A stretch of 64,000 nucleotides of DNA. Origin: an uncultured Clostridia bacterium (GTDB lineage: Bacteria > Bacillota > Clostridia > UBA1381). Each line of letters starts with the position of its first letter. Position 1 is the stretch's first letter. The stretch spans positions 1 to 64,000 of the forward strand of contig CALXWJ010000012.1 of NCBI GenBank assembly GCA_944392335.1, read 5' to 3'. Below, piece after piece: positions 3,424 through 60,963 of this stretch. Under the pieces are notes generated by a model. The model was not told the origin of the DNA. It was given only the letters and a program-made list of their open reading frames with translations, and did not search any database. The position numbers and the translations under genes are program-made.

Positions 3424-3598
3424 CGTTGCTCCGATTTGAAAATCTGAATAAAAATAATTTAAATTTCCCTTTTATTTTGTCGGTAATGTAAAAAAAAGGA
3501 TAAGTACAAAATTAAAGATTGACCGATAAATATTTCTATGATATATTAGTGATATGTGATAAAAAGTATCTATTAAATTTTTGATTTATTATATTTAT

Positions 3599-3741
3599 AA
3601 CTGCACACATGTTGTCACCCGCCGTAATCGGCGGCGGGTTGTATGTTTATAAGCAGTGAGAGCGCAATCTCCCGATGATTACAACGCAAGCTTTGCCTGC
3701 GCTATTGTCTTCGTTTAATGACGGGATAAACCCTTATTGAA
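3599..3741 (+). repeat. Dispersed structured intergenic repeat (copy A)
   Basis: A full 143-base copy that starts AACTGCACACATGTTGT and ends CCCTTATTGAA. Hairpin 1 is CCCGCCG/CGGCGGG (about 3618-3638). The hairpin 2 region begins with GTGAGAG, and the right-hand hairpin pairs TTGTC with GATAA, where other copies have TTGTCC/GGACAA. It sits between a minus-strand oxidoreductase and the plus-strand GH88 gene, ending about 70 bases before the GH88 start. Confidence 0.85.
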
Positions 3742-3808
3742 TAGACATGTTAGAAAATTTAAAACTGCGAAAGGAGACTTATGATATTCTTATCATAAAA
3801 TTATAAAA

Positions 3809-11192: not shown

Positions 11193-11205
11193 TGTATTTA
11201 ATATT

Positions 11206-11328
11206 ACTGCGCACATGTTGTACCCGCCGTAATAGGCGGCGGGTTTCATATTTGTAATAAGTGAGAGTATAATATCCCACTTATTGCAGAGCAAGCTATG
11301 CCTGCGCAATGCGACAGCCCCCTTATAT
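11206..11328 (+). repeat. Dispersed structured intergenic repeat (copy B)
   Basis: Begins ACTGCGCACATGTTGT and carries hairpin 1 (CCGCC/GGCGG) and hairpin 2 with AATAAGTG paired to CACTTATT. Relative to copy F (AATCAGTG/CACTGATT) one base pair is swapped on both sides, a compensatory change. The right hairpin is degenerate and the end reads CCCCCTTATATG. The TTA within that end is the reverse complement of the stop codon of the minus-strand crp gene, so the element reaches into the gene end. Confidence 0.8.
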
Positions 11329-12926: not shown

Positions 12927-12982
12927 AAACAAATGACCGGTACAAAAATAATCCAATCCTGTACCGGTCATTTGTTTTTTAG
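12927..12982. terminator. Strong bidirectional terminator
   Basis: An 18-base perfect stem AAACAAATGACCGGTACA/TGTACCGGTCATTTGTTT (12927-12944 with 12960-12977) is followed by a T-run on the plus strand. It lies between the Fe-S protein gene and the convergent V-ATPase operon and overlaps the end region of subunit D (stop at 12979), so it probably ends both transcripts. Confidence 0.85.
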
Positions 12983-22584: not shown

Positions 22585-22627
22585 AGTATGCCTCCGTATT
22601 ATGATTTTTATTAAAAATATATTTTGT

Positions 22628-22760
22628 AACTGCGCATATGTTGTCCCCGGCGTAATCGGCGGGCCCTGTATTTATGATCGGTCAGAGTACGATCTCCCGC
22701 TGATTACGGCGCAGGCTTTGCTCTTGTCCTCTTAAAATGACGGGACAAGCCCTTATTGAA
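22628..22760 (+). repeat. Dispersed structured intergenic repeat (copy C)
   Basis: A full copy beginning AACTGCGCATATGTTGTC and ending CCCTTATTGAA. Its right-hand hairpin is the best preserved, CTTGTCC paired with GGACAAG. Hairpin 1 is degenerate here. Both neighbouring genes are on the minus strand, so this copy is antisense to them. Confidence 0.85.
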
Positions 22761-22788
22761 ATTCTTGAGATGATAATCTATGTCAAAA

Positions 22789-38513: not shown

Positions 38514-38654
38514 AACCGCACACACATTGTCCCACTCCGCTTGCCGGAGGTGGGCGCAAAATCACAAATCAGTGAGAGTATGATATCCTGATGATCACAG
38601 CGTTGTATAGCTGCGCTCCTGCCATCGTTTAATAACCGGACGGCCCTTATTGAA
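38514..38654 (+). repeat. Dispersed structured intergenic repeat (copy D)
   Basis: A full 141-base copy starting AACCGCACACACATTGTCCC and ending CCCTTATTGAA. Hairpin 1 has changed sequence but kept pairing (CCACTCCG with CGGAGGTGG, one bulge), compared with CCGCCG/CGGCGG in copy F. It lies in the 357-base gap between the GH31 gene and the second SGNH hydrolase; the rest of the gap is AT-rich and unremarkable. Confidence 0.85.
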
Positions 38655-40012: not shown

Positions 40013-40155
40013 AACTTAAGCAAAGATGTCACCCGCATTTGTCGGCAGTGGGTTTCATTTCTGCAATCAGTGTGAGAGTGCAATCTCCCGCCGATCACAG
40101 CGCTGTATAGCTGCGCTCTTGTCCCTGTTTGATGACGGGGCAAGCCCTTATTGAG
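40013..40155 (+). repeat. Dispersed structured intergenic repeat (copy E)
   Basis: A full 143-base copy of the second left-end type (AACTTAAGCAAAGATGTC). The right-hand hairpin pairs CTTGTCCC with GGGGCAAG, and the end reads CCCTTATTGAG. It occupies the middle of the 436-base gap upstream of ispG; the remaining sequence is AT-rich. Confidence 0.85.
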
Positions 40156-43979: not shown

Positions 43980-43999
43980 CAAATATATTGTGATAATAT

Positions 44000-44165
44000 A
44001 ACTGCGCACACATGTTGTACCCCGCCGTTATCGGCGGCGGGTCCCATATTTGTAATCAGTGAGAGTACAATCTCTCACTGATTACAGCGCAGAAGTGCAG
44101 GGCGATTCACGAATCGCCTGTTTCGCTCATGTCCTTATTGAATTACGGGACAAGCCCTTATTGAA
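44000..44165 (+). repeat. Dispersed structured intergenic repeat (copy F)
   Basis: The longest copy (166 bases), with the best hairpin 2: AATCAGTGAGAG/CTCTCACTGATT, twelve perfect base pairs around TACAAT. Hairpin 1 is CCGCCG/CGGCGG. It carries an extra hairpin, GGCGATT/AATCGCC (44101-44118), inserted where other copies have a short loop. It ends ACAAGCCCTTATTGAAG. Confidence 0.88.
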
Positions 44166-44390: not shown

Positions 44391-44532
44391 AACCTAAGCA
44401 AAGATGTCCTCTGCCGTTATCGGCAGCTGGCTGCATATCTGTAATCAGTGAGAGTACAATCTCCCGCTGATCACAGCGTTAGCTATGCTTTACTCTTGTC
44501 CTCGTTGAATAACGGTACAAGCCATTATTAAA
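44391..44532 (+). repeat. Dispersed structured intergenic repeat (copy G)
   Basis: A full 142-base copy with the second left-end type (AACCTAAGCAAAGATGTCC). Hairpin 1 reads CTGCCG/CGGCAG where copy F has CCGCCG/CGGCGG, a compensated pair. Hairpin 2 and the right-hand hairpin (CTTGT/ACAAG) are kept. It ends CCATTATTAAA and is followed by a perfect palindrome TTCCTTAAGGAA (44533-44544). Convergent with the AraC gene. Confidence 0.87.
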
Positions 44533-45976: not shown

Positions 45977-48889
45977 ATGAAAAAATTATTATCATTGCTT
46001 TTGGCGGTTTCAATGTTTACAGCTGCAGCCGTGTATGCCGAAACGCCGCGGCAAACGGATACGCAGCCCGGGCTTCTTGATTATACCGTACCGAACACAA
46101 CATTTGCAAACAGAAACAAAATCGGTGTAAATCTGGGACAAATCAAAGTTGTATTTAACTGTGCGGTTACAGAGGAAATGCTGAACAATATTGATTTTAA
46201 AGAAGAGGATGGCACTGAACCGTTGGGAGGAATTATTAAATCAATAGACAAAAACGATGAAAACGGACAAACGGTTATTTTGAAATTTGGGGAACTAAAG
46301 GAAAATACAAAATATTATTTGACGTCAGGCGAGGAGACTGTGGAATATGAGACGATAAAAAAAGATTTGATTGAGGAAGATTTTGATGACTGGAGCACGG
46401 GAGAAATTGATCTGAGCACAGGAGCGATAGCCTCATTTAATGAAAATCCGTCTCTTTATTATCTCTCTCCTTCAGGAGGAAAAATTACTGTTAAAGAAGA
46501 AGATATTGACAAATATATCGAAGTTGAAAATACATCTTTAAACAGTGACCTTATAGTAGGTGCACGCCTTGAAGACAATATAACCGACGGATACATAGTG
46601 TCATTTGCGGATATAAAATACAGTGATGTAGGTGGTAATGATTGTATCGGAGGAATCCAAGGCTGGAATTTTGTAGGTCAAGGCAATGCCGGAATGTCAT
46701 ATTCTGAGCTTGACGGATTTACAGCAAATAACGACGGTTTTTATAATACTATGATAGTAACAAAAAAAATAAATACTGTTTTGAGGGAGGATTCACAGAC
46801 TCAGACAACTGCCGATTTTATTGTGGATGCTTATGATTTGACAGATACGTCTGTTGTTTCGCGTAACAGTAAATTTAATAAGAGTGCCGGCGACAGTAAA
46901 ATTCATACCTCTTCTATTATTAAGATGTATCACCAAGAGGGACAAACAGACGCTAAAATAATGCTTACTTATTATAGAGCAGGACTTTATACCATTCCTG
47001 AGCCGCTTGGGGAAGTTGTTTATGACAGCGCTTCAAAAACAGCTGAATTTATAGTAAATACCGATATTGATGCATCGACTTTAAACTTTGTAAAGGCTGT
47101 TAACGAGACTACAGATACAGAATTAAGCTGCGAAGCCGCATATAATCCTGATTCGCGTAAGATGACCGTAACACTTGAGGGAGATATATATTATCAGAAT
47201 AATATAAAGCTTGATTTATCAGGAGTGAAATCGGCAGACGGTGTAAAATTTGTAGAGCCGGTGAACATTATAAACGATAATGAAGGCGATGTATTTAAAG
47301 AAATGCAGATAATGTATTTTACGCCGGATCCGGAACTGTATAATGAATATACGAATACATTAATGAATCATATAGGAGTTAACCAGGAAAAAATTAAAAT
47401 TGTTTTTGATAAAGAGCTGGATAAAAATACACTTTCCGGTATTACTTTTAAAGATACAAACGGAAATTTGCCGGCCGGGGGAATAGTTTCTGAGATAGAT
47501 AGTGCCGACGTAAGTGGAAGGACCGTTATAGTAAGCTTTGGAGAACTTAAAGAAAATGAAGAATATACATTAACAATTCCTACCACTGTAAAAAGTGTTG
47601 ATAAGGAAGCAATTGCCAAGCGCGTCACAAAAAAGTATACCACAGCTTCCAAAGTCCTTTTAAACGAGGATTTTGATGACTGGGAAACGGGGAGTCTGGG
47701 AATATTTGAAAAAGGAAGTGCAAAGCAGTTAAAACCGGATACCAACCTGTATATTTACAATAAGGATTTAGATACCGAAGTATTTATCGGGGAAGAAAAT
47801 GGAGATAAATATCTTAAAGTGACTGCCGACGCAGATGAATCTGTCCTTAATGTAGGCTCGGTTTATCCATATATGTCTGCATCAAAAATTGTTACCATGG
47901 CGCAAATTAAGGCGAATGGGATAGGCGAATCACCAAAGCTTGGACAAATGAGATTGGGTTCTCTCGCGCGGGACAGCGTAGGAATTGATTTGTATAATGA
48001 CTTGGGTATTCCCTATCCTAATCTTTCATCGGAAATTACTGAAAACGGGTATAAGAAATTTACTGAGGTTACAGTATCGGAAAATATTATTCCGGTGGAG
48101 GGTGAAAATGACAAATTCACTCTTGACTGTACAAATGGGATTATAAATGAAACGGGAGAGATAGAAAACTATTCCGAAAAGACGCTAAGCTGCAATACCT
48201 ATACGGCAAGAATTAATTCCATTTCTTATCTTAGAAATTATAAAGCCGGCGCCGAAGAATTTATAACATCGGTAAATTCGGGATTTTACATGATTCCCGG
48301 TATTGTAGGCGATGCAGAATATGATAAACAAACAGGAATGTTCTCTTTTACGGCTAATACAGACATTGATACCGCGACTTTGGAGAATATTTCGGTCAGC
48401 TCCGGTGAAAAGAGCGCGGCTGTTTCCGATTTGCAGTATGACTCCAAGACAAGAAAAGTTTCATTTAAAATTTCAGATATTGAAGATGATACCGAATATA
48501 TAGTATCGGCGAAAAAAGTAAAATCAGCTGATGGTTTGGAATTTTCAGATATTTACACGTTGAGTAATACTCCTGATTATACTTTTGAGGAAATTTCGGT
48601 GAAAGATGTTTTCGGCGAAGAAACGTTATTTTATAATAACAATTCTTTTACAGTTACAGGCAAGATTATAAAAAATACATCTGCAGATGAAAATGCGATT
48701 CTTTTTGTAGCTCTTTATAATCCCGAGGGCCGTTTGACCGGCGTACAATATATACGGGCAAATGGAAATGAAACCCCTGTGAATATGCATTTTGACATAA
48801 GCGATACTATGAATCCTGATTGGAAACTTTCATATTTTATATGGAATGATGCTATGAAGCCACATGGTATGAAAGAATCTGTTCAATGA
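45977..48889 (+). CDS. Large secreted protein with two Ig/FDDW modules
   Basis: A 970-residue exported protein with a signal peptide (about 1-21, cleaved after VYA). It contains two copies of a module. The module opens with a SbsA-like Ig domain (about 45-120 and 465-555; conserved IGVN..Q.KIVF and FGELKEN), continues with a region that begins EEDFDDWSTG (133-142) or NEDFDDWETG (563-572), and closes with a second Ig-like domain (about 345-430, and again before the C-terminus). I cannot name the middle region. No catalytic domain or SLH domain is seen. It may bind polysaccharide or cross-link to neighbours at the surface. It is divergent from one AraC gene and convergent with another. Confidence 0.8.
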   Translation: MKKLLSLLLAVSMFTAAAVYAETPRQTDTQPGLLDYTVPNTTFANRNKIGVNLGQIKVVFNCAVTEEMLNNIDFKEEDGTEPLGGIIKSIDKNDENGQTVILKFGELKENTKYYLTSGEETVEYETIKKDLIEEDFDDWSTGEIDLSTGAIASFNENPSLYYLSPSGGKITVKEEDIDKYIEVENTSLNSDLIVGARLEDNITDGYIVSFADIKYSDVGGNDCIGGIQGWNFVGQGNAGMSYSELDGFTANNDGFYNTMIVTKKINTVLREDSQTQTTADFIVDAYDLTDTSVVSRNSKFNKSAGDSKIHTSSIIKMYHQEGQTDAKIMLTYYRAGLYTIPEPLGEVVYDSASKTAEFIVNTDIDASTLNFVKAVNETTDTELSCEAAYNPDSRKMTVTLEGDIYYQNNIKLDLSGVKSADGVKFVEPVNIINDNEGDVFKEMQIMYFTPDPELYNEYTNTLMNHIGVNQEKIKIVFDKELDKNTLSGITFKDTNGNLPAGGIVSEIDSADVSGRTVIVSFGELKENEEYTLTIPTTVKSVDKEAIAKRVTKKYTTASKVLLNEDFDDWETGSLGIFEKGSAKQLKPDTNLYIYNKDLDTEVFIGEENGDKYLKVTADADESVLNVGSVYPYMSASKIVTMAQIKANGIGESPKLGQMRLGSLARDSVGIDLYNDLGIPYPNLSSEITENGYKKFTEVTVSENIIPVEGENDKFTLDCTNGIINETGEIENYSEKTLSCNTYTARINSISYLRNYKAGAEEFITSVNSGFYMIPGIVGDAEYDKQTGMFSFTANTDIDTATLENISVSSGEKSAAVSDLQYDSKTRKVSFKISDIEDDTEYIVSAKKVKSADGLEFSDIYTLSNTPDYTFEEISVKDVFGEETLFYNNNSFTVTGKIIKNTSADENAILFVALYNPEGRLTGVQYIRANGNETPVNMHFDISDTMNPDWKLSYFIWNDAMKPHGMKESVQ

Positions 48890-48921
48890 AGAAAAAAGAG
48901 AGATTTGCAGTATAGTAAAAT

Positions 48922-49731
48922 TTAAGAACGCAGATATTTTGAAGGTGAAAACCCGGTGTATTGCCGAAAAGCGCGGGAAAAATATGAAAGATTATTAAAT
49001 CCGGATTTTTCGGCAATTTCACTCATCGCATATTTTTTCTGAGCTATAAGCCCCTGGGCGTGTTTTATTCTCAGAGAATTTATATAAGAAATTACAGTTG
49101 TGTGTGTATACTTTTTAAATTCTCGTGCAAGATGAGCAGGGTTTACTCCTATTTGGGCCGCAACGTCATCAAGGGTAATGGCATTTGTGTAATTTGCTGT
49201 TATATAGCCAAGGGCAGTGCGGATATTGCTGAATGATTTGTTTTTTGATTCGGATATGTTGTTGTATGAGGCTTGGTGGTTTTTCATCAGGTGCAGAATA
49301 ATTTCAAGAGCATATATATCGGCGGACAAATTCCAATATGGCAGCCTGTTATCGCATTCGCCAAGCATTTTGTATAACATCGATACAATATGATTGTCTG
49401 TAAATATGGTGCAAAAAGAAAGCTCGCTTATATCAATTCTGTTTACGCGGCAGAGTTCGGCGTTAACATTTAGTATAAGGAACCTTATTTCGCTGTCGGT
49501 TGAGATAGTGTGCGGATCAAATGAATCAAACACGCATATTTCACCTGTATGAATAGGATACTCATTTAAATGGGAGTAAATAGTTCCGCTTCCGCTGCAA
49601 ATATAAAGGAGTTCGAGGTCTTCATGCCAGTTGATCGGTCTGAAATTCGGCGCTTTTAAATGCTGGCGGCGGATATAAGTATGTGATTTTTCTGATTCGG
49701 GAAAATTAACTTGAAACTCGGCTTTTAACAT
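48922..49731 (-). CDS. AraC family transcriptional regulator
   Basis: A 269-residue regulator with an N-terminal cupin domain (HEDLELLYICSGSG near residues 36-49) and a C-terminal double HTH (IGVNPAHLAREFKKYTHTTVI, and AEKSGFNNLSYFSRAFRQYTGFSPSKYLRS as the end). ATG 49731 is nine bases from AAAGGAG and is preferred to the ATG at 49740 that abuts it. It lies between two genes of the secreted cluster and is divergent from the second, so it probably regulates that gene set. Confidence 0.9.
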   Translation of the reverse strand: MLKAEFQVNFPESEKSHTYIRRQHLKAPNFRPINWHEDLELLYICSGSGTIYSHLNEYPIHTGEICVFDSFDPHTISTDSEIRFLILNVNAELCRVNRIDISELSFCTIFTDNHIVSMLYKMLGECDNRLPYWNLSADIYALEIILHLMKNHQASYNNISESKNKSFSNIRTALGYITANYTNAITLDDVAAQIGVNPAHLAREFKKYTHTTVISYINSLRIKHAQGLIAQKKYAMSEIAEKSGFNNLSYFSRAFRQYTGFSPSKYLRS

Positions 49732-49890
49732 AACAGTCATCTCCTTTAATGGCTTATATATTTATTATATAATAACAAACAGTTATTTTCAAGTGAAAAA
49801 TTGGAATTAAAACCCGTCATAAAAATATGAACATGAAAAACTAAGGCTATAAAAAATAAATTATATTATTGCAAGTGTATATTAGCACTC

Positions 49891-49951
49891 TATCCTCTTA
49901 TCTGCCCGCAGATAAGAGGATAAAAATAAAATGTATTTGCGGGCAGAAAGG
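49891..49951 (+). promoter_or_regulatory. Leader with two mutually exclusive hairpins
   Basis: Stem 1, TATCCTCTTATCTG/CAGATAAGAGGATA (49891-49904 with 49909-49922), is a perfect 14-base hairpin with a four-base loop. Stem 2, TCTGCCCGCA/TGCGGGCAGA (49901-49910 with 49938-49947), is a perfect 10-base match that uses part of stem 1 and ends at the AAAGG ribosome binding site (49947-49951). The two cannot form together. A small ORF (MYLRAER, 49931-49954) overlaps the second arm. This resembles a translational attenuator or riboswitch expression platform for the gene at 49965. Confidence 0.6.
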
Positions 49952-49964
49952 TAATGGAAACGTT

Positions 49965-52900
49965 ATGAAGAAAATATTATCGCTGTTTCTGGCGTCATCA
50001 ATGCTATGTCTAAATATTCAGGCGGCAAAAGCGGAGGAAACTGTAAAATATTCCTATGTAATTCCTAATGTGGAAATGGTAAGCGGAAGAAATATAATAG
50101 GAACAAACCAGGGTGAGATAAGGGTTGTTTTTGAAGGAATACCCCAAAATTTGGAGCAGATAAGCTTTTGCGGTTCAGATGGATATGAGCCTGTTGGCGG
50201 AGTAATAAAGACGCTTGATGAAAATATTCTCAGCTTGAAATTTGCAGAGCTTAAAGAAAATGAAGAATATACACTTACCATTCCGGAAGAGACCGGAATA
50301 GACGCAGAAAAAATTATTAAATTTCAAACCGGAAATAAACTTTTAGTATCGGAAGATTTTGAAGATTGGGAATTGGGAGACGTTACTCCCGACGGCACAG
50401 GATATATGTCGTTTGCGGATAATCCCGATTTAAAAGTAAAAAAGGACGCTTCGGCGGTGTTTGAAATAGAGGAAACTGAGGATGGAGACAAATATCTGAC
50501 CGCGGCAAATTCACAAAAAGGGAAGGATTTGATGATAGGCGCGGAGGTTGATGATATATCAAGAGGCATGATAGATGTTAAGGTTGTCTCGTTGGCCGGT
50601 TTTAAAGAAATGAATGGAAAGGACGCCCCCATGAACGCTGTAGGCGGCTGGTGGGGCTGGTGTTTCGGCGGTGTAAGTCACGAAGGAATAAGGCATCAGA
50701 AATTTAATAACTTTACAAAGAATGAAAACGGATTTTATGAAACCCTTGTAACAACAGAAAAATATGATACTGTGATAAATCCCGATAATACTAACCAGGC
50801 AATTTCGAGAGTGAGAATAACCGCAGAGGATAAAAACAGCGATGAAAAGGTGAGTGAAACAGGGACAAAAACAGCTGCAAAGAATGATTCAAAAGTAGTG
50901 AATGCAGCCGCAGTTAAAATGTATCCGTCGGAGGACAGCTATATTTCGGATAAAATCGGGCTTACATATTATAAGGCGGGATTTTTTACAATGCCCGAAA
51001 TTTGGGGAGAACCGGAATATAACGGAGATACATATACTATGACCATTGGCGTTAATACCGATATGAATCCGGATTCTTTTGAAGGCATAACCGTTACCGA
51101 TGGAGTCAGAAATTATGAAAGACAGGTTTCGTATGACGCGGAGTCAAGAAAAATTTTGGTGACGGTCACTGATAAGATTTTCGATGGTTACAGTTACAGT
51201 GTTAATATAAATGAAGCAGAATCATCAGATGGGTTTAAAATGTCAGGGAAAATTGATTTTACTCACAAAAATGATGCTGATATAGTTATATCCCCTCAGA
51301 TTGAAGACGCATATAACTATAACGGAGAAACGAGAACGCTTACTTTTAATACGAATGTAGAGCTCGACGAAGCATCTCTTGATACAGTCCGTGTAATTGA
51401 TAAGAGGAAGAACAGAGAAATATCTTTCGATTGCATATATGACAATAAAAAGGTGACGATTGTTATTAATGAAAAAATGTATTACGGCTGTGAATATGAG
51501 ATTGTTTTAAAGGGAGTAAAATCGCTGGAAGGTATTGAAATGAAGGATAACCTTGTTATTATTCACAATAATCCTGCAGATGAGCTTAAATTTATACAAT
51601 CCGAATATGCCATTCCTAATCCAAAACTTCGTCAATCTATAAAAAACGGCGTTGAAAGCTATATAGGCTTTGCACATTATATTGGTGTGAATCAAGGATA
51701 TATAAAGCTTGTTTTTGATAAAGATGTGGATGAGCAGACGGCGGATTTTATAACTATTACCGATAGCGGCGGAAGAGCTCCAAAAGGAAGGCTTTTGAAG
51801 ATCGTTGAAGGAAATACGGTAACATTGCAATTCGGAGAACTTCTGCCGGAAACGGACTATACCGTAAGGATTGAAACGGGGCTTACAGGTGTAGACGGTT
51901 CGATTCTTGACGAGTCTGTTGAATATAAATATACAACCCGACCCAAACTGTTTGCTGAAGAGGACTTTTCGGATTTTACAGCAGGAACAGAAGAAAATTA
52001 TACTGACGAGGCAAGTACAGCAATTGCTCTCGGAACAAAGGGAGTTGAAATTGGAAGAGACAAAGAGAGCGACATAAGCGTAAAAGTAGGTCAGACAGAG
52101 AATGGTAAAAAATATGTAGATTTAATAGAAAATATCAACGGTAAAAACCTTATGGTAGGATGGGGCCCAATGGGTCATAATGCAACCGCTTATAACCCGG
52201 TATTCACGGAGGGTGAATTTGCGGCAATAATAGAATATGATATTATACAAGAAGCGGAAGGATATAACGGAAACCTTTCAAGAATGCATCATTATTATTT
52301 TGCCGACAGATATAAGGGTATAAATGCTGCCAATACATCAGAATTTGTAAAAAATGAAGATGGGCTTATGCAAATACAATTATCAGCTAAAAAATATGAT
52401 ACTGTAGAAGCCGGAGTTAACGAATCCGGGTCTATGCTTTATAATACCAAATATTATTCGGGCGCATATGATATGCTCGGCGGAAAGAAGCTGTATTTTG
52501 AAGGTGAAATGAATAACAGCGTAGACGCAGCACAAATCGACACGTATTCAGTAGCGCAGACATATACAAACAACGGAGACCCGGGATATAAAGGAAACGG
52601 AATCAGAATCGGATATATAAAATGCGGGCTGTTCACAATACCGGATCTTATCGGAAGCCCCCAATACAATCAGAATGAAGGTACAGTAAAATATTACATA
52701 AATACAGACCTTGACACTGAGACTGTAAAAAATATTAAGTTATATGATGAAAAGAGCGGCGAGCAGATAGAGACATATGCCTCTTATGATGAGGACGAGA
52801 GACTAATAACTGTAACTCTTTTGGAACCTTTAGGGTATCAGGCAAATTATATAACAGATTTTTCGGGAATACAGTCAATAGACGGATTTGTTTTCGAGGA

Positions 52901-53528
52901 AAATAACACTTTCCGCAACCTCCTTACAATAGAGGATATTACGCAGAGTGTGGAAATTACAAATGACTTTGAAAATGCATATTTAAACATACTTTTTGAA
53001 AACGCAGTCAGTGCAGATAAAAATGATATAACGCTGTATGCACCCGACGGCAGCACTGTTGATTTTGATATGAATATAACCGGTAATGAAATGATGCTGA
53101 AATTTAAAAATAATTTTGATTATAAAAACAGTTACAGTCTTATCATAAGTAAAAATATAAAAAATCTTGCAAAGCCCGATATAAGTTTTGAGAAAGACGC
53201 GCAATATGATTTTATGCTCTGTGATATATTCTCTATAAACAAATTAAATTATACCATAAACGAAACAGGGCTCAGCTGTTCTGCAGAGCTTGTAAATAAT
53301 ATGGAAGACCGGGCTGTGGAGACGCTTGTTACAGTGGCTGTTTTTAATAAAGATAAAAGACTTATAGCGTCAAATTTTGATGTCTATAGTGTTGCGCCGT
53401 CGGACAGTACATCGGTTGAGTATAGCTTTGAAAATGCACAAGACGCCGCATTTATAAAAGTTTACGCGCTCAGCAGGAATCCGGAGCTTAAAACCTTGTA
53501 TAAGGAAACAGTTAAGAATATTGAATAG
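49965..53528 (+). CDS. Very large secreted protein with two Ig/FDDW modules
   Basis: A 1187-residue exported protein with signal peptide (about 1-24, KKILSLFLASSMLCLNIQAAKA). It opens with the same SbsA-like Ig domain as its neighbours (IIGTNQGEIRVVF), then SEDFEDWELGDVTPDGTGYMS near residue 128, a first Ig-like domain, extra Ig-like segments, and a second module starting YIGFAHYIGVNQGYIKLVF with EEDFSDFTAG. No catalytic or SLH domain is recognised. The start is set at ATG 49965, giving a clean signal peptide; the frame is open back to 49869. Its role is probably glycan binding or surface structure. Confidence 0.8.
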   Translation: MKKILSLFLASSMLCLNIQAAKAEETVKYSYVIPNVEMVSGRNIIGTNQGEIRVVFEGIPQNLEQISFCGSDGYEPVGGVIKTLDENILSLKFAELKENEEYTLTIPEETGIDAEKIIKFQTGNKLLVSEDFEDWELGDVTPDGTGYMSFADNPDLKVKKDASAVFEIEETEDGDKYLTAANSQKGKDLMIGAEVDDISRGMIDVKVVSLAGFKEMNGKDAPMNAVGGWWGWCFGGVSHEGIRHQKFNNFTKNENGFYETLVTTEKYDTVINPDNTNQAISRVRITAEDKNSDEKVSETGTKTAAKNDSKVVNAAAVKMYPSEDSYISDKIGLTYYKAGFFTMPEIWGEPEYNGDTYTMTIGVNTDMNPDSFEGITVTDGVRNYERQVSYDAESRKILVTVTDKIFDGYSYSVNINEAESSDGFKMSGKIDFTHKNDADIVISPQIEDAYNYNGETRTLTFNTNVELDEASLDTVRVIDKRKNREISFDCIYDNKKVTIVINEKMYYGCEYEIVLKGVKSLEGIEMKDNLVIIHNNPADELKFIQSEYAIPNPKLRQSIKNGVESYIGFAHYIGVNQGYIKLVFDKDVDEQTADFITITDSGGRAPKGRLLKIVEGNTVTLQFGELLPETDYTVRIETGLTGVDGSILDESVEYKYTTRPKLFAEEDFSDFTAGTEENYTDEASTAIALGTKGVEIGRDKESDISVKVGQTENGKKYVDLIENINGKNLMVGWGPMGHNATAYNPVFTEGEFAAIIEYDIIQEAEGYNGNLSRMHHYYFADRYKGINAANTSEFVKNEDGLMQIQLSAKKYDTVEAGVNESGSMLYNTKYYSGAYDMLGGKKLYFEGEMNNSVDAAQIDTYSVAQTYTNNGDPGYKGNGIRIGYIKCGLFTIPDLIGSPQYNQNEGTVKYYINTDLDTETVKNIKLYDEKSGEQIETYASYDEDERLITVTLLEPLGYQANYITDFSGIQSIDGFVFEENNTFRNLLTIEDITQSVEITNDFENAYLNILFENAVSADKNDITLYAPDGSTVDFDMNITGNEMMLKFKNNFDYKNSYSLIISKNIKNLAKPDISFEKDAQYDFMLCDIFSINKLNYTINETGLSCSAELVNNMEDRAVETLVTVAVFNKDKRLIASNFDVYSVAPSDSTSVEYSFENAQDAAFIKVYALSRNPELKTLYKETVKNIE

Positions 53529-53589
53529 ACCATATATTATCAGGAGGAAATAAGCAATCTTACAATAATGAAAGGGGTTTATATATATT

Positions 53590-56500
53590 ATGAAAAAATT
53601 TTTATCTGTAATTTTGCTTTTTGTGTTGACATTTCAAATAATCGGCGCCGGAAGGGTTGTTTACGGTGAAACAGAACTTTCGTTTTTATATACTATACCA
53701 AGTACAGAATTTGTTGATGGAAGAAGACATATTGGAGTAAATCAAGGGGAAATAAAAATTGTTTTTAACGGCATACCAAACAATGAACTTATGCAGGATA
53801 TAACCTTTTGCGATTCTCTGGGAGAAGAACCGGAGGGAGGAGTTCTCAAAAACATTGAAGATGACAATACAGTTGTTTTAAAATTTGGCGAATTAAAAGA
53901 AAAGGAGAATTATACTCTTAGCATTTCCGATTTAAAAACAGTTATTTATACTACTGTAGATAAAGAGCTTGTAACAGAAAATTTTGATGATTGGGCATTG
54001 GGTGATGTAAGCCCTGATGGAACAGGATATTTTTCTTTCAGTGAAAATACGAGTCTTAAAGGCTACAGCGAGAGCGAAGATATAGAATTTTCGATCTGCG
54101 GAGACGATTCAGATAGGTATTTGAGGATACTGAGTCCGGTTATTAAAAAAAATATGCTTATAGGCGCACAGGCGACAAATAATTTGGTTGACGCCCAGGT
54201 GGTTTCTTTTATAAGCTTCAGAAAGACAAATGAGCAGAATATACCGTCCGCGGCAGAATTTTCAGGGTTAAGGGGATGGACATTTACCGGAAGGCAATAC
54301 AGCGGTTTCGGATATGGAAGCTTTGATAATTTTGAGAAGAATGAAAATGGTTTTTATGAAATAATGTCTGTAAGCAAAAAATATAATTCGGTTTTAAACG
54401 GAAATACAGCAAACGGGAATTTTTCCTGTTGGGCATATGATATGCAAAGCGGCGCAGAGGTGAAAAAAACTTCTTCATACAGTGAAAATCCGTCGGATAG
54501 TAAGGTCTATACTTCTGTTGCTGTAAAATCATATCACACTAAGGAAGAAGATTTAGCTGACTATATAGACCTTACAAGCTACAGAGCGGGTTTTTATACA
54601 TTACCAAAGATATTGGGAGAACCTGAAATAGAGGGCACGAATATATCGTTTTATATTAATACAGATATAAATACAGACGCCCTTTCGCAGATAAGCGTGT
54701 ATCTTGCAGACAGCGGAGAAGAGGCGGCAATAAGCAATTTAAGCTGCAATGGCAGAAAAATATCCTTTACCACCGGTACAACCCTTTCCGGTAAGGACTA
54801 TACAATAGATTTCGCAAATATGCAGTCCGACGACGGACTATACATCGAGCCTTACAGATGTGATAACGCTTTTTATGCAAATATTTCCCAAAATCAAAAT
54901 ATCGATATATATATTTCTCCCAACGGGAATGATTACAACAGCGGAGGCCAAGGCTTGCCGATTCAAACAATTAAAAGATTATCGGAGATGTTATATAAAA
55001 TAAACGATATGGGTTTCGGCGGCAGTGTGAAAGTAAATTTTTCGGATGGCATATATAGATTTTTTGAGCCTTTTGTTATTGACGCAATTAATTACAGCCT
55101 TGAAATAAACGGCAGCGACGCCACGGTTTTTACCACAGCAGAAACAGTAGGACAGCAGAGTATAAAACCTATTGATACAAATATAAAAAATCGGCTTTCG
55201 GAAAGTGTAAAGAACAGCGTTGTTGCAATAGATTTGGATAAATATGTCCCGGTACGGTATCAGGACCCTCTCAGAGGTTCAATGTATAAAGGATTTTGCC
55301 TTTATAATGCCGATGATGAGGAAAAGATATGTTCATACCCCAATGACGGTTTTATAACACTGAATAACAGTGATTTTGAAAAGGTCAGCGAAACTATACA
55401 GGCAGATAACTCTGTTTTGAAAACGTATCACATAAGCCTGCCGCGTGCGGAGCACTGGAGTGATGCAGACGTATATGTCGAGGGATATCTTGAATGGATG
55501 TGGTCATACTATAGGCTGAAAGATGTTGCCAGCGATAGTCTTAATAAAAAGCTTATTATGAATACTAAAGCAACCCTTAAGGAGGAAGACAGGCTTAAGC
55601 TTTTGAATGTATTGGAGGAAATTGACGTTCCGGGCGAATGGTGCGCGGAGAATGGAACAGCTTATTATTATCCGAAAAATAATAATGGTCTTGAAATTTC
55701 AAGGGCGCAAATAAATTTACTTTCTCTTTCCAATACCGACAACCTTGTTATAAGCGGCATAACCTTTAAAAATATTGCCGGGGAAGCTATACAAATAAGC
55801 GAATGTGACGGGCTTACAATTCAGGACTGTGAATTTGTAAATATCGGAAAGGCTGCTGTAATAAGTGACGCCAATACAGAGATAAGAAATGCAGATATAA
55901 AAAATAATTATTTTGAAAATATCAGTTATATAGGTATAGATATAACCGGAGGCGACAGGGGAACGCTTACGGAATCGGAAAATGAGATTTCACAAAATGT
56001 GTTTAACAATATTGCGACCTTTGCCAGGGCTTATTCGCCTGCGATCAAGGTTAATGGAGTGGGTAATACCGTATCATATAATACAATACGCAACAGTCCG
56101 CATATGTGTATTGGATTTTCCGGTTCAAAAAACAAAATTCTCTATAATTATATTACAGAAGCCTGCCGTGAAACCGGCGACTGCGGTGCAATATATGCAG
56201 GGCGTGATTTTACATGGGTAGATAATGAAATAGCGTATAATTACATAGAAAATGCCCTCATTACCGACGCCGATATGCTTTCCTCGTGGAGAAGCTCTTT
56301 TCAGACGGGAATTTATATGGATGACAGACTCAGCGGGAGCCATATTCATCATAATTATATAAAAAATGCCGTGAGAGGAATATTTATCGGGGCAGGCTCC
56401 AATTCGAATATACATGATAATGTTATTGAAAATTGCAGTGTATCGGGAATAAGGATAGGAGGCGCACAGGATCTCCAATTCAATGATGATACATTGGTGC

Positions 56501-57345
56501 AGGCCGCCATTGAATATTTTGAAGAATATCCCATATATCTTACAGAATATCCGTATCTTTTAAATATTATCAATGAAGAAACTTATACAACACAGCCTCA
56601 TAACAACAATGTAGCTAACAATATTTATGTGGGAGCCGTACCTTCGGAAGGAGCTGCAAGCGGAAATGAAAATGAAATCAATTCTCAATACAGCAATAAT
56701 GTGATATATACAGATATAAACCAGGCTCTTGCAGACAAAGGGATAAACCTTCAAAACTTTAATTACAGCGGCATAGGGACACAATTGCGGTTAAGATATC
56801 CTAAAGATGAAGAAAGTTATCTTTCCGCGGAAAAAATAGAATTTGGATGGGAGCTTATGCCGGGAGCGAAGGAATATGTATTGACTTTAAAAGATAATAA
56901 CGGCACTAAGCTGGATGAGGTAACAACAAGAAATACTTACTGCACCTTAACCGATATAGGTGAAGCGGAGTATTATATATGGCAGGTGAAAGCGGTCACC
57001 GGAAAAGATACTTTTGTTTTATCGCAAGAGTACAAATTCACTGCTAATATGCCCGTAAATGCAGAAAAAATATTGTTTAAAACATCAGAAGGAAGAAACG
57101 TTCAAAATATTGAGAAAGCTAAAAAATTCAGAATAGAAGGTATAAGCGGTGAAAGCTGTAAGGTGGTTATAGGAGTATATAATGATGGAATGTTAAAACA
57201 AGTTATGATAAATGACCCCCAAGAAAACTATGCGCTTCCATATATGCAGAGGCAGGATACAATATCGGTATGCATAATGGACAGTTTGCAGGGACTAAAG
57301 CCATTGTCATATAAGCTTACCGTAGGATATACAGGTAAAGAATAA
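53590..57345 (+). CDS. Secreted Ig/FDDW module fused to a GH141-like beta-helix
   Basis: A 1251-residue exported protein (signal peptide about 1-26). The N-terminal third is one module of the type found in the two preceding genes (HIGVNQGEIKIVF, then NFDDWALGDVSPDGTG near 135). From about residue 445 a GH141-like parallel beta-helix begins (IDIYISPNGNDYNSGGQGLPI), with the family segment NVLEEIDVPGEW then AYYYP around 675-695, and GIYMDDRLSGSHIHHNYI near 900. A fibronectin-like domain follows (about 1065-1155). A secreted glycanase with its own targeting module is the simplest reading. Confidence 0.8.
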   Translation: MKKFLSVILLFVLTFQIIGAGRVVYGETELSFLYTIPSTEFVDGRRHIGVNQGEIKIVFNGIPNNELMQDITFCDSLGEEPEGGVLKNIEDDNTVVLKFGELKEKENYTLSISDLKTVIYTTVDKELVTENFDDWALGDVSPDGTGYFSFSENTSLKGYSESEDIEFSICGDDSDRYLRILSPVIKKNMLIGAQATNNLVDAQVVSFISFRKTNEQNIPSAAEFSGLRGWTFTGRQYSGFGYGSFDNFEKNENGFYEIMSVSKKYNSVLNGNTANGNFSCWAYDMQSGAEVKKTSSYSENPSDSKVYTSVAVKSYHTKEEDLADYIDLTSYRAGFYTLPKILGEPEIEGTNISFYINTDINTDALSQISVYLADSGEEAAISNLSCNGRKISFTTGTTLSGKDYTIDFANMQSDDGLYIEPYRCDNAFYANISQNQNIDIYISPNGNDYNSGGQGLPIQTIKRLSEMLYKINDMGFGGSVKVNFSDGIYRFFEPFVIDAINYSLEINGSDATVFTTAETVGQQSIKPIDTNIKNRLSESVKNSVVAIDLDKYVPVRYQDPLRGSMYKGFCLYNADDEEKICSYPNDGFITLNNSDFEKVSETIQADNSVLKTYHISLPRAEHWSDADVYVEGYLEWMWSYYRLKDVASDSLNKKLIMNTKATLKEEDRLKLLNVLEEIDVPGEWCAENGTAYYYPKNNNGLEISRAQINLLSLSNTDNLVISGITFKNIAGEAIQISECDGLTIQDCEFVNIGKAAVISDANTEIRNADIKNNYFENISYIGIDITGGDRGTLTESENEISQNVFNNIATFARAYSPAIKVNGVGNTVSYNTIRNSPHMCIGFSGSKNKILYNYITEACRETGDCGAIYAGRDFTWVDNEIAYNYIENALITDADMLSSWRSSFQTGIYMDDRLSGSHIHHNYIKNAVRGIFIGAGSNSNIHDNVIENCSVSGIRIGGAQDLQFNDDTLVQAAIEYFEEYPIYLTEYPYLLNIINEETYTTQPHNNNVANNIYVGAVPSEGAASGNENEINSQYSNNVIYTDINQALADKGINLQNFNYSGIGTQLRLRYPKDEESYLSAEKIEFGWELMPGAKEYVLTLKDNNGTKLDEVTTRNTYCTLTDIGEAEYYIWQVKAVTGKDTFVLSQEYKFTANMPVNAEKILFKTSEGRNVQNIEKAKKFRIEGISGESCKVVIGVYNDGMLKQVMINDPQENYALPYMQRQDTISVCIMDSLQGLKPLSYKLTVGYTGKE

Positions 57346-57357
57346 GGGAGGATTGCC

Positions 57358-60300
57358 ATGAAAAGATTTATTTCGCTGGTTTTGGTGATTTTTGCTATAA
57401 TACCTTTTGTCAGCGGGGTATGCGTTGCCGAGCAGGCGAAAACGGTACTCTATGTTTCACCCGAGGGAGACGATAGAAATCCCGGAACAGCTCAAATGCC
57501 GCTAAAAACGGTGAGCGGCGCTGTGGTGACTATAGAAAAAATAAAAAATGAAAACAATAAAACTCCAATTGACGTTATATTTTCAGGCGGAGAATACAGG
57601 ATAACAAAAAGTATATCAGTAAATTCAATAAACAGCGGAACAAAAGAGGGACCTGTTACCTTTAAGGCCGCAGATGGTGAAAAACCGGTTTTTACATCGG
57701 GGATAGTCTTGGATATCGATAAATTTACAGAGATTACCGATATGGACATTTATGAAAGACTTCAGGAGAATGTAAGAGATAAGGTCGGCGAGCTTGATTT
57801 GAAGCAGTATGGGATAACAACAGTTCCGAGATTACCAACAGGCAAGATGGGAGCGACGGGTGCAAATTATTATCTTTTGTATCTTGACGGAGAACGGCAG
57901 ACGCTTGCCCGATGGCCGGATGTAGGGTATGAGAAGATTGCGGAATTAGTGGATAAAAACAATTCTATTTTCCGGCCCGCGGGAACTGATATAATAAGAT
58001 GGGGAACGGCAAAAGCATCTGAAATACATTTGTCGGGATTTTTATCAAGCCAGTATAGTCTTGACAGAATATATCTGCAGAGTATCAACGTTAAGGAAAG
58101 AACAATACAGATTAGTTCAAATTATACAATCAGTGGAAGTGACAGAAGATATTTTTTGCAGAATTTTTTGGAGGAACTTAATTATCCGGGTGAATGGTAC
58201 ATAAATTCCGAAACAATGAAGCTTTATTATTATCCGGAGCATAAGCTTTCCAACGAACGTCTGGAGATCGCAACACTTACTGCTCCTATGTTTAATCTTA
58301 ACGGAGCCTCATATGTGAATTTTGACGGCATATCCTTTGAAAGGACCAATATAGCAATTCAAATCACAGGATGCAACAATATAAATATAACAAACTGCGT
58401 ATTTGATGAAATGGGAAAAAATGCTGTATACGATGCACAGTCCTCCAATATGAAATATGATTTTGATAAAGCGGTTCCGTCTTCGGATATTCGGGTGGAT
58501 TCATGTATTATGAGCGATATAGGAGCAGGAGCGGTGACTCTTGCCGGCGGAGATTATTATAAGCTCACACCGGGAAATATTAAGGTAACCAATAATTATA
58601 TTACAAGATTTGCGCTTGACTGGAAAAACTATGCTCCTGCAATAGATGTAGCCGGAGTTGGCTGTGAAGTTTATAACAATACTATTCATGACGCACCGGG
58701 AAATGGTATTCAAACCTATGGAAACGACCACAAAATTATGTATAATGAGATTTATGAAATTTTAAAGGACGTGCATGACGCCGGGGGAGTTTATGAAGGA
58801 AGAAGCGCTATAAGAAGGGGAACGGAGTTTGCCTACAACTATTATCATGATTTAAGAATGACAGACACCTCAATTGGAGATATGGTGTGCGGATTATATA
58901 TGGATGACGGTTTATGTGAATGGAATATACATCATAATATATTTGACAACTGTATAAAGGGTTTATTTCTTGGCGGAGGAGATTATTCAACGGTTGAAAA
59001 CAATATGTTTATAAATTGCCCTGTAGGGCCGCAGCTGGGATTCTATATAAATGAAAACAGAAAGCCATATATTATTGAAGCAGAGGAATATTTAAAGAAA
59101 TATCCGGCATATCAAAAATATCAAATGGAAAATATGATGGATGTTATAACTCTCGGAAATACAGGAAATAAAATCAATAATAACCTTCTTGTCAACAGTA
59201 CGGTTAGCATAACCGACGCGGCAATAGCAAGAGGGAACGAGGCGGTTGGAAATTTAAGTTATGTAAGCGGGGAGGATGCGGGCTTTAAGGATTATCAAAA
59301 GAAAAATTATGAAATAAACGAAAATTCCGAAACTGCAAAGGTTTTGCCGGGACTTTTGGATATAGATATGGATAAAATCGGAATAAGCAAAGAGATGTGG
59401 GATAGAATTGAAAAAAAAGATATAGTAAAATATGCGCCCGCGAACGGAAGCGAGGGTGTTTCATCATCAAGGATTACATTCCGTTGGGAGAACGATAATA
59501 TCTGTGACAAATACATCTTTACACTGGCAACCGACGCCGAAATGAAAAATGTTGTTTATACCGAAACGGCCAGATATAATTTTGTTACGCTTAACAACGT
59601 TTTAAAGCCCGGTAAAAGGGTATATTACTGGAATGTTGTGGGAATGGATTCTTCAAAGGAATGTTTTGAAAATGTTCAAAGCCGGGGCGAAGCATACAGG
59701 CTTGTAACATCTTCATATGACGAAACTAACAAGCTGTATCTGAATGAAGAGATTGAAATTGCCAAAGAGACTATGGCGGAATTAAGCGTAGGAAATGATA
59801 TGGGTCAGTGCTCTCAGGAAACATTGGATAAATATGAAGCAGCATTGAATGAAGCTTTAAGTGTTCAGAGAACCAAATATTTAACGCAGGCCACCGTTGA
59901 TAACTGTGTTGAAATGCTTGCTCAAGCACGTGTTGAACTAAACGCCAACAGAAACGCAGGGTATGAAAATCTTGATTACGGTCTTAGAAATGAAACATGG
60001 CGTTATCAGGGTAGGGAATCTGAAATAAAAGACGGAGTTCTTACGTTAAAAAACAGGTTAGCTTACATGGACAGCGTTATTCCCGCCTATGAAGTCCTTA
60101 CATTTAAGATGAAACCGGATAAAGATTACACGATGATTGCCGTAACGCTTCGTTTAAAGCAGATGGGCATAATCTGGCAGGGGGGAGCAGGCGGCGACGG
60201 GTATACGATTATTATAAAACCCGGGCTTGTGGAATATCAGCGTTATAAGGGAGGAAAAGGAGGTATATTAAAAACCGTAGAAAACCTTTATCTGAAAGCG

Positions 60301-60963
60301 GGGGAATGGAATGATATTGAAGTTGGCTGTGTACCGTATAAGGAAGGTATAAAAACGATATTCAGGGTTAATGGCCATGATGTGCTGAATGAATATGATG
60401 ACAGCGGCCTCATTACTGATGAAGGAGGACTGCAGTTTGAAAACTTTAATGATACATCGGGACTTCCTCTTGAAATCATGGGAGCAGACAGTGTTGGAGA
60501 GTTTAGCCAGAGTATTGTTACAGGAAAACTGGAAGCGGTTACTCCGGTATTGGTAGATTCTATTGAAAATCTTGATATAAAAAATGATAACGGAGTTACA
60601 AGTATAAACGGGCTTAACGGCAATGAAGTGCTTAAATTCGACGCGGTTTTGAATGGCCAGGATATAGCGCTGCGGTGTGACGAGGAAAATGAATACAGAA
60701 TTAAGGTCACAAATGAGAAGATAGTTCTAAACCGAGTTACAAAAGAGGGGAATTCATGTATAATATCCAAAGAAAATACAGAACTTCCGCTGGGAGAAAA
60801 ATTTAATATAACCGTTGGCGCGTATCCGTGCGAGGAAGGTATGAGAATTATGTTATACAAAAATAATGAAAAAATTATTGATTACATTGATTCATATTCA
60901 AAGCACGATTCAACACAGATAAAAATATATGAAAACGGTAAGGGCAGTATTTTTGCCGGCTGA
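57358..60963 (+). CDS. Secreted GH141-like beta-helix enzyme with FIVAR region
   Basis: A 1201-residue exported protein (signal peptide about 1-24). The GH141-like beta-helix starts at VLYVSPEGDDRNPGTAQMPL, contains NFLEELNYPGEWYINSETM and LYYYPE (about 265-290), and GLYMDDGLCEWNIHHNIFDN near 515-535. A fibronectin-like domain (about 690-775), a FIVAR-type helical region (about 800-870, QETLDKYEAALNEAL) and two C-terminal beta-rich segments follow. It comes 12 bases after the previous gene, with a GGGAGG site, so it is in the same transcription unit. Probably a hemicellulase or pectin side-chain enzyme. Confidence 0.82.
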   Translation: MKRFISLVLVIFAIIPFVSGVCVAEQAKTVLYVSPEGDDRNPGTAQMPLKTVSGAVVTIEKIKNENNKTPIDVIFSGGEYRITKSISVNSINSGTKEGPVTFKAADGEKPVFTSGIVLDIDKFTEITDMDIYERLQENVRDKVGELDLKQYGITTVPRLPTGKMGATGANYYLLYLDGERQTLARWPDVGYEKIAELVDKNNSIFRPAGTDIIRWGTAKASEIHLSGFLSSQYSLDRIYLQSINVKERTIQISSNYTISGSDRRYFLQNFLEELNYPGEWYINSETMKLYYYPEHKLSNERLEIATLTAPMFNLNGASYVNFDGISFERTNIAIQITGCNNINITNCVFDEMGKNAVYDAQSSNMKYDFDKAVPSSDIRVDSCIMSDIGAGAVTLAGGDYYKLTPGNIKVTNNYITRFALDWKNYAPAIDVAGVGCEVYNNTIHDAPGNGIQTYGNDHKIMYNEIYEILKDVHDAGGVYEGRSAIRRGTEFAYNYYHDLRMTDTSIGDMVCGLYMDDGLCEWNIHHNIFDNCIKGLFLGGGDYSTVENNMFINCPVGPQLGFYINENRKPYIIEAEEYLKKYPAYQKYQMENMMDVITLGNTGNKINNNLLVNSTVSITDAAIARGNEAVGNLSYVSGEDAGFKDYQKKNYEINENSETAKVLPGLLDIDMDKIGISKEMWDRIEKKDIVKYAPANGSEGVSSSRITFRWENDNICDKYIFTLATDAEMKNVVYTETARYNFVTLNNVLKPGKRVYYWNVVGMDSSKECFENVQSRGEAYRLVTSSYDETNKLYLNEEIEIAKETMAELSVGNDMGQCSQETLDKYEAALNEALSVQRTKYLTQATVDNCVEMLAQARVELNANRNAGYENLDYGLRNETWRYQGRESEIKDGVLTLKNRLAYMDSVIPAYEVLTFKMKPDKDYTMIAVTLRLKQMGIIWQGGAGGDGYTIIIKPGLVEYQRYKGGKGGILKTVENLYLKAGEWNDIEVGCVPYKEGIKTIFRVNGHDVLNEYDDSGLITDEGGLQFENFNDTSGLPLEIMGADSVGEFSQSIVTGKLEAVTPVLVDSIENLDIKNDNGVTSINGLNGNEVLKFDAVLNGQDIALRCDEENEYRIKVTNEKIVLNRVTKEGNSCIISKENTELPLGEKFNITVGAYPCEEGMRIMLYKNNEKIIDYIDSYSKHDSTQIKIYENGKGSIFAG

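Follow-up and report, generated by a model that had tools for sequence, protein, structure and literature searches.

Translational riboswitches built as H-type pseudoknots include preQ1-I, SAM-II, SAM-V and SAM/SAH, each serving genes of one pathway and answering to a known ligand. Among the small interspersed repeats of bacteria, which carry structure to many places in a genome, are ERIC and REP. BOX, RUP and SPRITE of the pneumococcus are described at many intergenic positions, including positions between convergent genes (PMC3049150). Two further motifs are MRSC-65-2, a multi-copy structured candidate for a mobile or repeat sequence (PMC11109978), and STAXI, a small pseudoknot that occurs as tandem repeats near DNA-handling genes (PMC2864571).

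Here we analyze a structured leader in a 64,000-nucleotide stretch of DNA from an uncultured Clostridia bacterium (the whole stretch is referred to as the window), in which two stems and a Shine-Dalgarno-like AGAAAGG lie directly ahead of a gene for a secreted protein. We put at roughly 60% the probability that this feature is a self-contained, pseudoknotted replacement ribosome binding site (RBS), and that the window copy is a short form of a leader module dispersed in Clostridia. Our searches of open-licence PMC papers, and passages of PMC3049150, PMC2864571, PMC11109978 and PMC8632094, yielded no description of such a module.

Layout and predicted folding of the window copy

The features of the locus are collected in Table 1. 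A sequence-only reading of this DNA had proposed a perfect hairpin and an overlapping alternative pairing, and both exist. As measured, the hairpin arms (TATCCTCTTATCTGC / GCAGATAAGAGGATA) are perfect over 15 nt, and the alternative pairing spans 14 nt with one G-U, contains 10 bp without mismatch (TCTGCCCGCA/TGCGGGCAGA), overlaps the hairpin and ends at AGAAAGG. Such a structured leader ending at the RBS, as had also been proposed, is very unlikely to be a product of chance: folding of positions 49860-49990 gave z = -4.0 against 200 shuffles, and perfect inverted repeats with 15-nt arms and a loop of 2-8 number two in the 64 kb and none in 30 order-1 simulations.

Table 1. Coordinates of the leader, its surroundings and other repeats in the window.
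Feature	Position	Strand	Basis or remark
P1 5' arm, TATCCTCTTATC	49891-49902	+	Inverted repeat; compensatory change keeps P1 in relatives
L1, joint between P1 and P2, 1 nt	49903	+	Mostly 1-2 nt in relatives
P2 5' arm, GCCCGCA, inside the P1 loop	49904-49910	+	Varying pair never unpaired in 26 copies
P1 3' arm, GATAAGAGGATA	49911-49922	+	Inverted repeat; P1 kept in relatives
L3, A/T-rich pseudoknot loop	49923-49937	+	Length and sequence vary in relatives (alignments A1, A3)
P2 3' arm, TGCGGGC	49938-49944	+	Pairing in the window and in relatives
Shine-Dalgarno-like AGAAAGG, abutting the P2 3' end	49945-49951	+	Sole RBS candidate seen for the gene
Perfect hairpin, 15-nt arms, 2-nt gap	49891-49905, 49908-49922		Inverted-repeat search of the window
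Alternative pairing, 14 nt	49901-49914, 49934-49947		Overlaps the hairpin
Seven-codon ORF, MYLRAER	49931-49954	+	Read from the sequence; not conserved in relatives
Mini-ORF METL, four codons	49954-49968	+	Start overlaps the MYLRAER stop; own stop overlaps the gene start
Secreted 1187-aa protein with Big_5 Ig-like domain (gene served)	49965-53528	+	Translation, Pfam; ATG at 49965
AraC-type regulator, divergent	48922-49740	-	Pfam; nothing ties it to the module
Copies of the ~150-bp repeat	3596-3745, 11201-11293, 22627-22763, 38517-38602, 40032-40154, 43996-44165, 44405-44532		
Other perfect inverted repeat, 15 nt	44051-44065, 44072-44086		Inside the ~150-bp repeat
Other perfect inverted repeat, 18-nt arms, 15 nt apart	12927-12944, 12960-12977		

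ViennaRNA energies were -19.6 kcal/mol for the hairpin and -22.2 kcal/mol for the long alternative helix, and -15.4 kcal/mol for P1 alone (12 bp) and -13.3 kcal/mol for the P2 duplex (7 bp). By these values, either long helix of the window copy, hairpin or alternative, matches the parts of the pseudoknot in computed stability, and other folds may compete with it.

The distance from AGAAAGG to the start codon is 13 nt. Upstream of the module, neither a native Shine-Dalgarno sequence nor a left hairpin was seen. For the gene served, a search of 60 relatives yielded no full-length orthologue, and a single weak, partial homologue outside the own genome (in G009). The gene belongs to a run of giant secreted proteins (45977-60963); those starting at 45977, 49965 and 53590 are related by sequence, and the products of 53590 and 57358 carry beta-helix domains. 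A leader search of the own genome placed the module at two sites only, 49891 and pgk.

The window also contains a second, unrelated interspersed repeat of ~150 bp (Table 1), with ~69-84% identity, which includes GTAATCAGTGAGAGTACAATCTC and a TTGAATTACGGGACAAGCCCTTATT-like end. A piece related to it lies in the pgk leader of the own genome and is missing from the pgk leader of G002.

A second copy at pgk

A BLAST search with the leader against its own genome returned one strong non-self match (80% over 65 nt, E 6e-9), which lies immediately ahead of the gene for phosphoglycerate kinase (Pfam PGK). Its loop reads AGCCCACA and the top of the window-type hairpin cannot form, whereas P1 (CTTATC/GATAAG) pairs and P2 (GCCCACA/TGTGGGC) pairs, with an A-U replacing the G-C of the window; because both stems form in a copy that cannot make the hairpin top, P1 and P2 are compatible. 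The mutually exclusive hairpins of the sequence-only reading are not supported: this copy has lost the overlapping part of the hairpin, and comparison of the copies shows both P1 and P2 kept through compensatory change. With a joint of 1 nt, P2 running straight into the P1 3' arm, a longer A/T-rich loop and AGAAAGG behind P2, the geometry is, on the predicted pairs, that of an H-type pseudoknot.

The module is sporadic at this gene. We fetched 30 pgk loci, of which 29 were readable, and found it in two (the own genome and G002, of the window's genus); the other 27 have an ordinary RBS. In G003, also of the window's genus, the pgk promoter is the same but an ordinary RBS, AATGAGGTGTAAATTATG, stands where the module would be. 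The promoter conserved with this module-free leader is located upstream of the whole pseudoknot. Judged from these leaders, the module at pgk has taken the place of an ordinary RBS downstream of a conserved promoter.

P1 and P2 in relatives

An alignment of 26 copies shows P2 pairing intact in 97% of cells; its one freely varying pair is A-U in 18 copies, G-C in 8 and unpaired in none; the search patterns fix the P2 3' arm and AGAAAGG, so that the constancy of these two is partly built in. Six P1 pairs are changed on both sides. The shuffles were exceeded for paired cells, for cells with two-sided change and for the covariation score; two measures did not exceed them, the count of pairs altered on both sides (152/500) and pair types (121/500). 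Across 83 copies, P1 averages 6.61 contiguous pairs; swapping arms among the copies gives 6.02 (maximum 6.25). Pair counts were taken from alignment A1 and per-copy scripts; the 62-row alignment A3 misaligned two P1 3' registers.

The best evidence for the pseudoknot comes from a distant family, that of G169, in which 10 of 10 sites have a perfect P2 partner. The P1 arms of this family (TTCCTC/GAGGAA, CGTTTCTC/GAGAAACG, GCTTTATT/AATAAAGC, AGCCTTGTC/GGCAGGGCT and others likewise complementary) differ completely in sequence between copies yet remain complementary, with a mean of 6.60 pairs against 3.29 for exchanged arms and none of 2000 exchanges as high. Sites in G218 (4/4), G190 (5/5, one weak), G122 (7/10, one unconvincing) and G154 (6/8) are in agreement. 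Three sites in G183 have no P2 partner and were discarded as chance matches. By this comparison, which establishes the pseudoknot at the level of predicted pairing, the two stems are parts of one H-type pseudoknot abutting AGAAAGG rather than two exclusive states.

Two other readings concern the window copy. As a DNA operator, the 15-bp palindrome would serve to bind a dimeric protein, which could be the product of the divergent AraC gene, and a perfect dyad does lie beside a regulator gene. A dyad leaves unexplained why P2 joins non-adjacent arms and covaries, and why P1 changes its sequence completely between copies while keeping its complementarity; we find an operator scarcely credible. 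The AraC gene adjoins the leader as the sequence-only reading had noted, but the link it suggested between the two is unsupported, the module preceding many unrelated genes. In the attenuation also proposed there, ribosomes on the seven-codon ORF would choose between the hairpin and the alternative helix. The ORF is present, it continues in a chain of overlapping stops and starts, and the two computed folds are of similar energy, all of which would suit such a mechanism; however, the ORF sits in a variable loop and is not kept in aligned relatives, the top of the competing hairpin is missing in the pgk and other copies, and the only Shine-Dalgarno-like stretch that could serve the ORF, AGAGG, lies within a hairpin arm. 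Attenuation through this ORF is, on these grounds, very improbable.

Spread across genomes

The pattern GCCCNCAGATAAN{8,38}GGGCAGAAAGG matched 20 sites in 13 of 101 genomes, and its reversed control none. With R for N, it matched 27 stretches in the GTDB set, of which 24 were Clostridia bins and three were gammaproteobacteria; the latter lack the P2 pairing and were set aside as chance. A covariance model (R1), built from the 26 copies with P1 only, had matches in 82/101 genomes at E<=0.01; its opposite-strand matches, some with E as low as 1e-5, reflect the near-palindromic helices and do not enter the counts.

The 13-base core GYGGGCAGAAAGG is present in 110 of 296 genomes. Counted by hand, 63 of the 95 genomes of the order contain it, with 249 sites in all (reversed pattern, 19), as do 47 of 201 further genomes of the class, with 99 sites (reversed, 18). 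A single genome, G075, has 61 core sites, and its genus sisters have 0 to 5. At six genes, G122 and G154 have a core site in common, which indicates, as far as such shared positions can be read, that the elements are inherited within the genus.

Rfam returned nothing at the motif in the window at the gathering score, and the module went unmatched in 26 loci up to E 5. The pattern, tried in two forms, was absent from viral contigs, and one long element (from L123) was without match among plasmids.

Position before start codons and genes served

In 81 of the 83 copies, 10-18 nt separate AGAAAGG from a start codon (exactly 14 nt in 49), a fixed place ahead of start codons that is evident from comparison of the copies. 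AGAAAGG presumably pairs with the 16S tail; the expected tail was unmatched in the own genome (up to one mismatch) and, as an exact match, in eight genomes, where the rRNA may be unassembled or masked.

A Pfam scan of 20 proteins found the genes served to be unrelated and without a common pathway. They include a nucleotidyl transferase of the GlgC kind, a sigma factor, a class I (W/Y) tRNA synthetase, semialdehyde dehydrogenases and UvrD/PcrA; DUF378, a MurG-like glycosyltransferase, RemA, IlvD, LGT and SpoVAD; and a Na/Ala symporter, S4, YbaB, GreA and a D-Ala-D-Ala ligase. Further genes, among them purC, recN, prmA and dinB, were recognized by eye. Two leaders have a dedicated riboswitch upstream of the pseudoknot, for lysine (asd) and for glycine (the Na/Ala symporter), as expected of a generic RBS module.

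Service to many unrelated genes would also fit an mRNA stabilizer, a pseudoknot that chiefly shields the leader against nuclease attack. Stability requires neither contact with the RBS nor a near-constant spacing to the start codon, and we hold this role to be improbable.

The long form in G075

In G075, 40 aligned copies define a conserved unit of ~165 nt with sharp ends and the pseudoknot in its 3' part. The order is Pa (TTAACGTGA-N3-5-TCACGTTAA), a long hairpin Pb, AATNNCCAT, the pseudoknot, AGAAAGGCT and ATGGNNATT. The last of these pairs with AATNNCCAT to form a third helix, P0 (NN = TA/TA, CT/AG, CA/TG, TT/AA), which is absent from the window copy.

P0 is the best argument for the main rival to a replacement RBS, namely a global translational switch, in which a protein or small molecule would bind the pseudoknot and hide or free AGAAAGG, so that many unrelated genes obey one signal. 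In long forms P0 ties down the stretch that separates AGAAAGG from the start codon and covaries (mean run over 83 copies 7.94, against 6.16 for exchanged arms, maximum 6.61); known translational switches of the pseudoknot kind are likewise built as an H-type pseudoknot in contact with the RBS; and remA carries the module in two families. Against this, the genes served share no pathway, the module is sporadic among orthologues (pgk, 2/29) and also sits behind dedicated lysine and glycine riboswitches, and outside G075 the P0 covariation is weak as a mean, hardly above the shuffles (6.93, shuffled maximum 6.89). We consider a global switch unlikely, though deserving of more weight than the other alternatives.

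The place of the long form argues for a replacement RBS. A native Shine-Dalgarno-like sequence lies within 12 nt 5' of Pa in 31 of 37 copies, compared with 2 of 37 in the adjoining interval; the GGAGG at this place was for that reason rejected as part of the unit and assigned to the gene. At purC, G075 reads GGAAGGAACTGA, then the element, then ATG, and the full element is missing in 11 of 11 genus sisters, several of which read GGAAAGGAACTGATAAATATG. At ilvD, G075 has AGATTTAAGGGAGGATT-element-ATG, and the four sisters compared all have AATCTAAGGAGGAAAAAGAAA-ATG or nearly so. Sisters likewise have empty sites at asd (3/3) and at spoVAD, murG, lgt and prmA (4/4 each); apt, the seventh gene queried, gave no match at the threshold used. 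Homology of the upstream sequence reaches as far as the Shine-Dalgarno at purC, ilvD, asd and in one spoVAD sister, whereas at murG, lgt and prmA the flanks differ and the comparison shows absence only. From the filled and empty sites at purC, ilvD, asd and spoVAD, it is established, at the level of aligned leaders, that the long form in G075 was inserted downstream of the native Shine-Dalgarno and ahead of the start codon, to which it would supply a new Shine-Dalgarno. With many similar, sharp-ended copies and both filled and empty orthologous sites, it has these properties of a small interspersed repeat or MITE-like insertion. No clear target-site duplication was seen when the G075 junctions were read by eye.

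In G066 the purC leader (L208) holds only a AGAAAGGCTATGGTGATT-like stretch, corresponding to the 3' end of the element, without the pseudoknot; an excision trace, a deletion or an ancestral RBS are each possible.

Sampling by the Pb arm is blind to the RBS and covered 30 of 53 listed copies. Among these 30, 26 have the canonical pseudoknot and a gene, three have a variant pseudoknot (with ORFs of 472, 148 and 63 aa), and one has no ORF and a broken P2, as expected where nothing depends on P2.

Two other accounts of the long form were considered. Pa as a leader peptide, with a GTG in it after the native Shine-Dalgarno, was rejected in that the frame is not kept and L032 is without a start codon there (by eye). 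For a self-splicing or ribozyme element, comparison of 16 loci with Rfam up to E 5 gave neither an intron nor a ribozyme. Eight G075 loci (L123, L125, L107, L241, L243, L245, L256 and L257) have a shared 5' extension in place of the native Shine-Dalgarno, consisting of a GCAATAAATTGC-like hairpin and ...CCTTGTTGTT..., perhaps a longer version of the element.

Discussion

We infer the following role for the module as a replacement RBS. By locking up its own flanks, the pseudoknot would insulate AGAAAGG and keep it presentable whatever the upstream sequence. An inserted module would bring its own Shine-Dalgarno, and the gene would come to depend on it; because of that dependence, selection would preserve the pseudoknot and let the remainder of the insertion decay. 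Short forms such as the window and pgk copies would then be what is left after such decay. A ligand or protein may in addition switch the pseudoknot. The distant families of G169, G190 and G218 have mostly short forms, in housekeeping leaders, and the short form may instead predate the insertion element and have been taken into it later, rather than being its relic.

More tentatively, and with slightly less than even confidence, we suggest that the module represents a new class of small, non-coding insertion elements of Clostridia, which would insert precisely into the gap between Shine-Dalgarno and start codon, bring a pseudoknotted RBS, make essential genes dependent and take over as many as tens of host genes per genome, leaving as relic a 'regulatory' leader pseudoknot. 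If this is true, many riboswitch-like leaders in uncultured gut Clostridia would be a shared, transplanted translation-start module and not gene-specific sensors, and housekeeping genes (murG, purC, asd, lgt, pgk) would have had their translation start rewritten by a selfish or semi-selfish sequence. It would also offer a testable example of genes growing dependent on the RBS of a parasite, and a warning to motif discovery that covariation and RBS contact alone do not amount to a ligand-controlled switch.

Comparison with known systems

The module resembles preQ1-I, SAM-II, SAM-V and SAM/SAH in that a hairpin loop pairs downstream, L3 is A/U-rich and the second stem touches the Shine-Dalgarno. 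Unlike those riboswitches, it stands before dozens of unrelated genes, is sporadic in orthologues and lacks an Rfam match in 26 loci.

With STAXI, the module shares a small pseudoknot near various genes (PMC2864571), but it is a single pseudoknot beside the RBS of unrelated genes. Similarly, it is a multi-copy structured motif of suspected mobility like MRSC-65-2 (PMC11109978), and differs in containing an RBS and in its fixed orientation towards the gene. The long form is short, structured, non-coding and present in many similar copies per genome, as are BOX, RUP and SPRITE (PMC3049150). Unlike these repeats, the long form was inserted between a native Shine-Dalgarno and a start codon, and a canonical pseudoknot that carries its own RBS lies at the end of 26 of the 30 copies sampled, just ahead of an ORF (three more have a variant).
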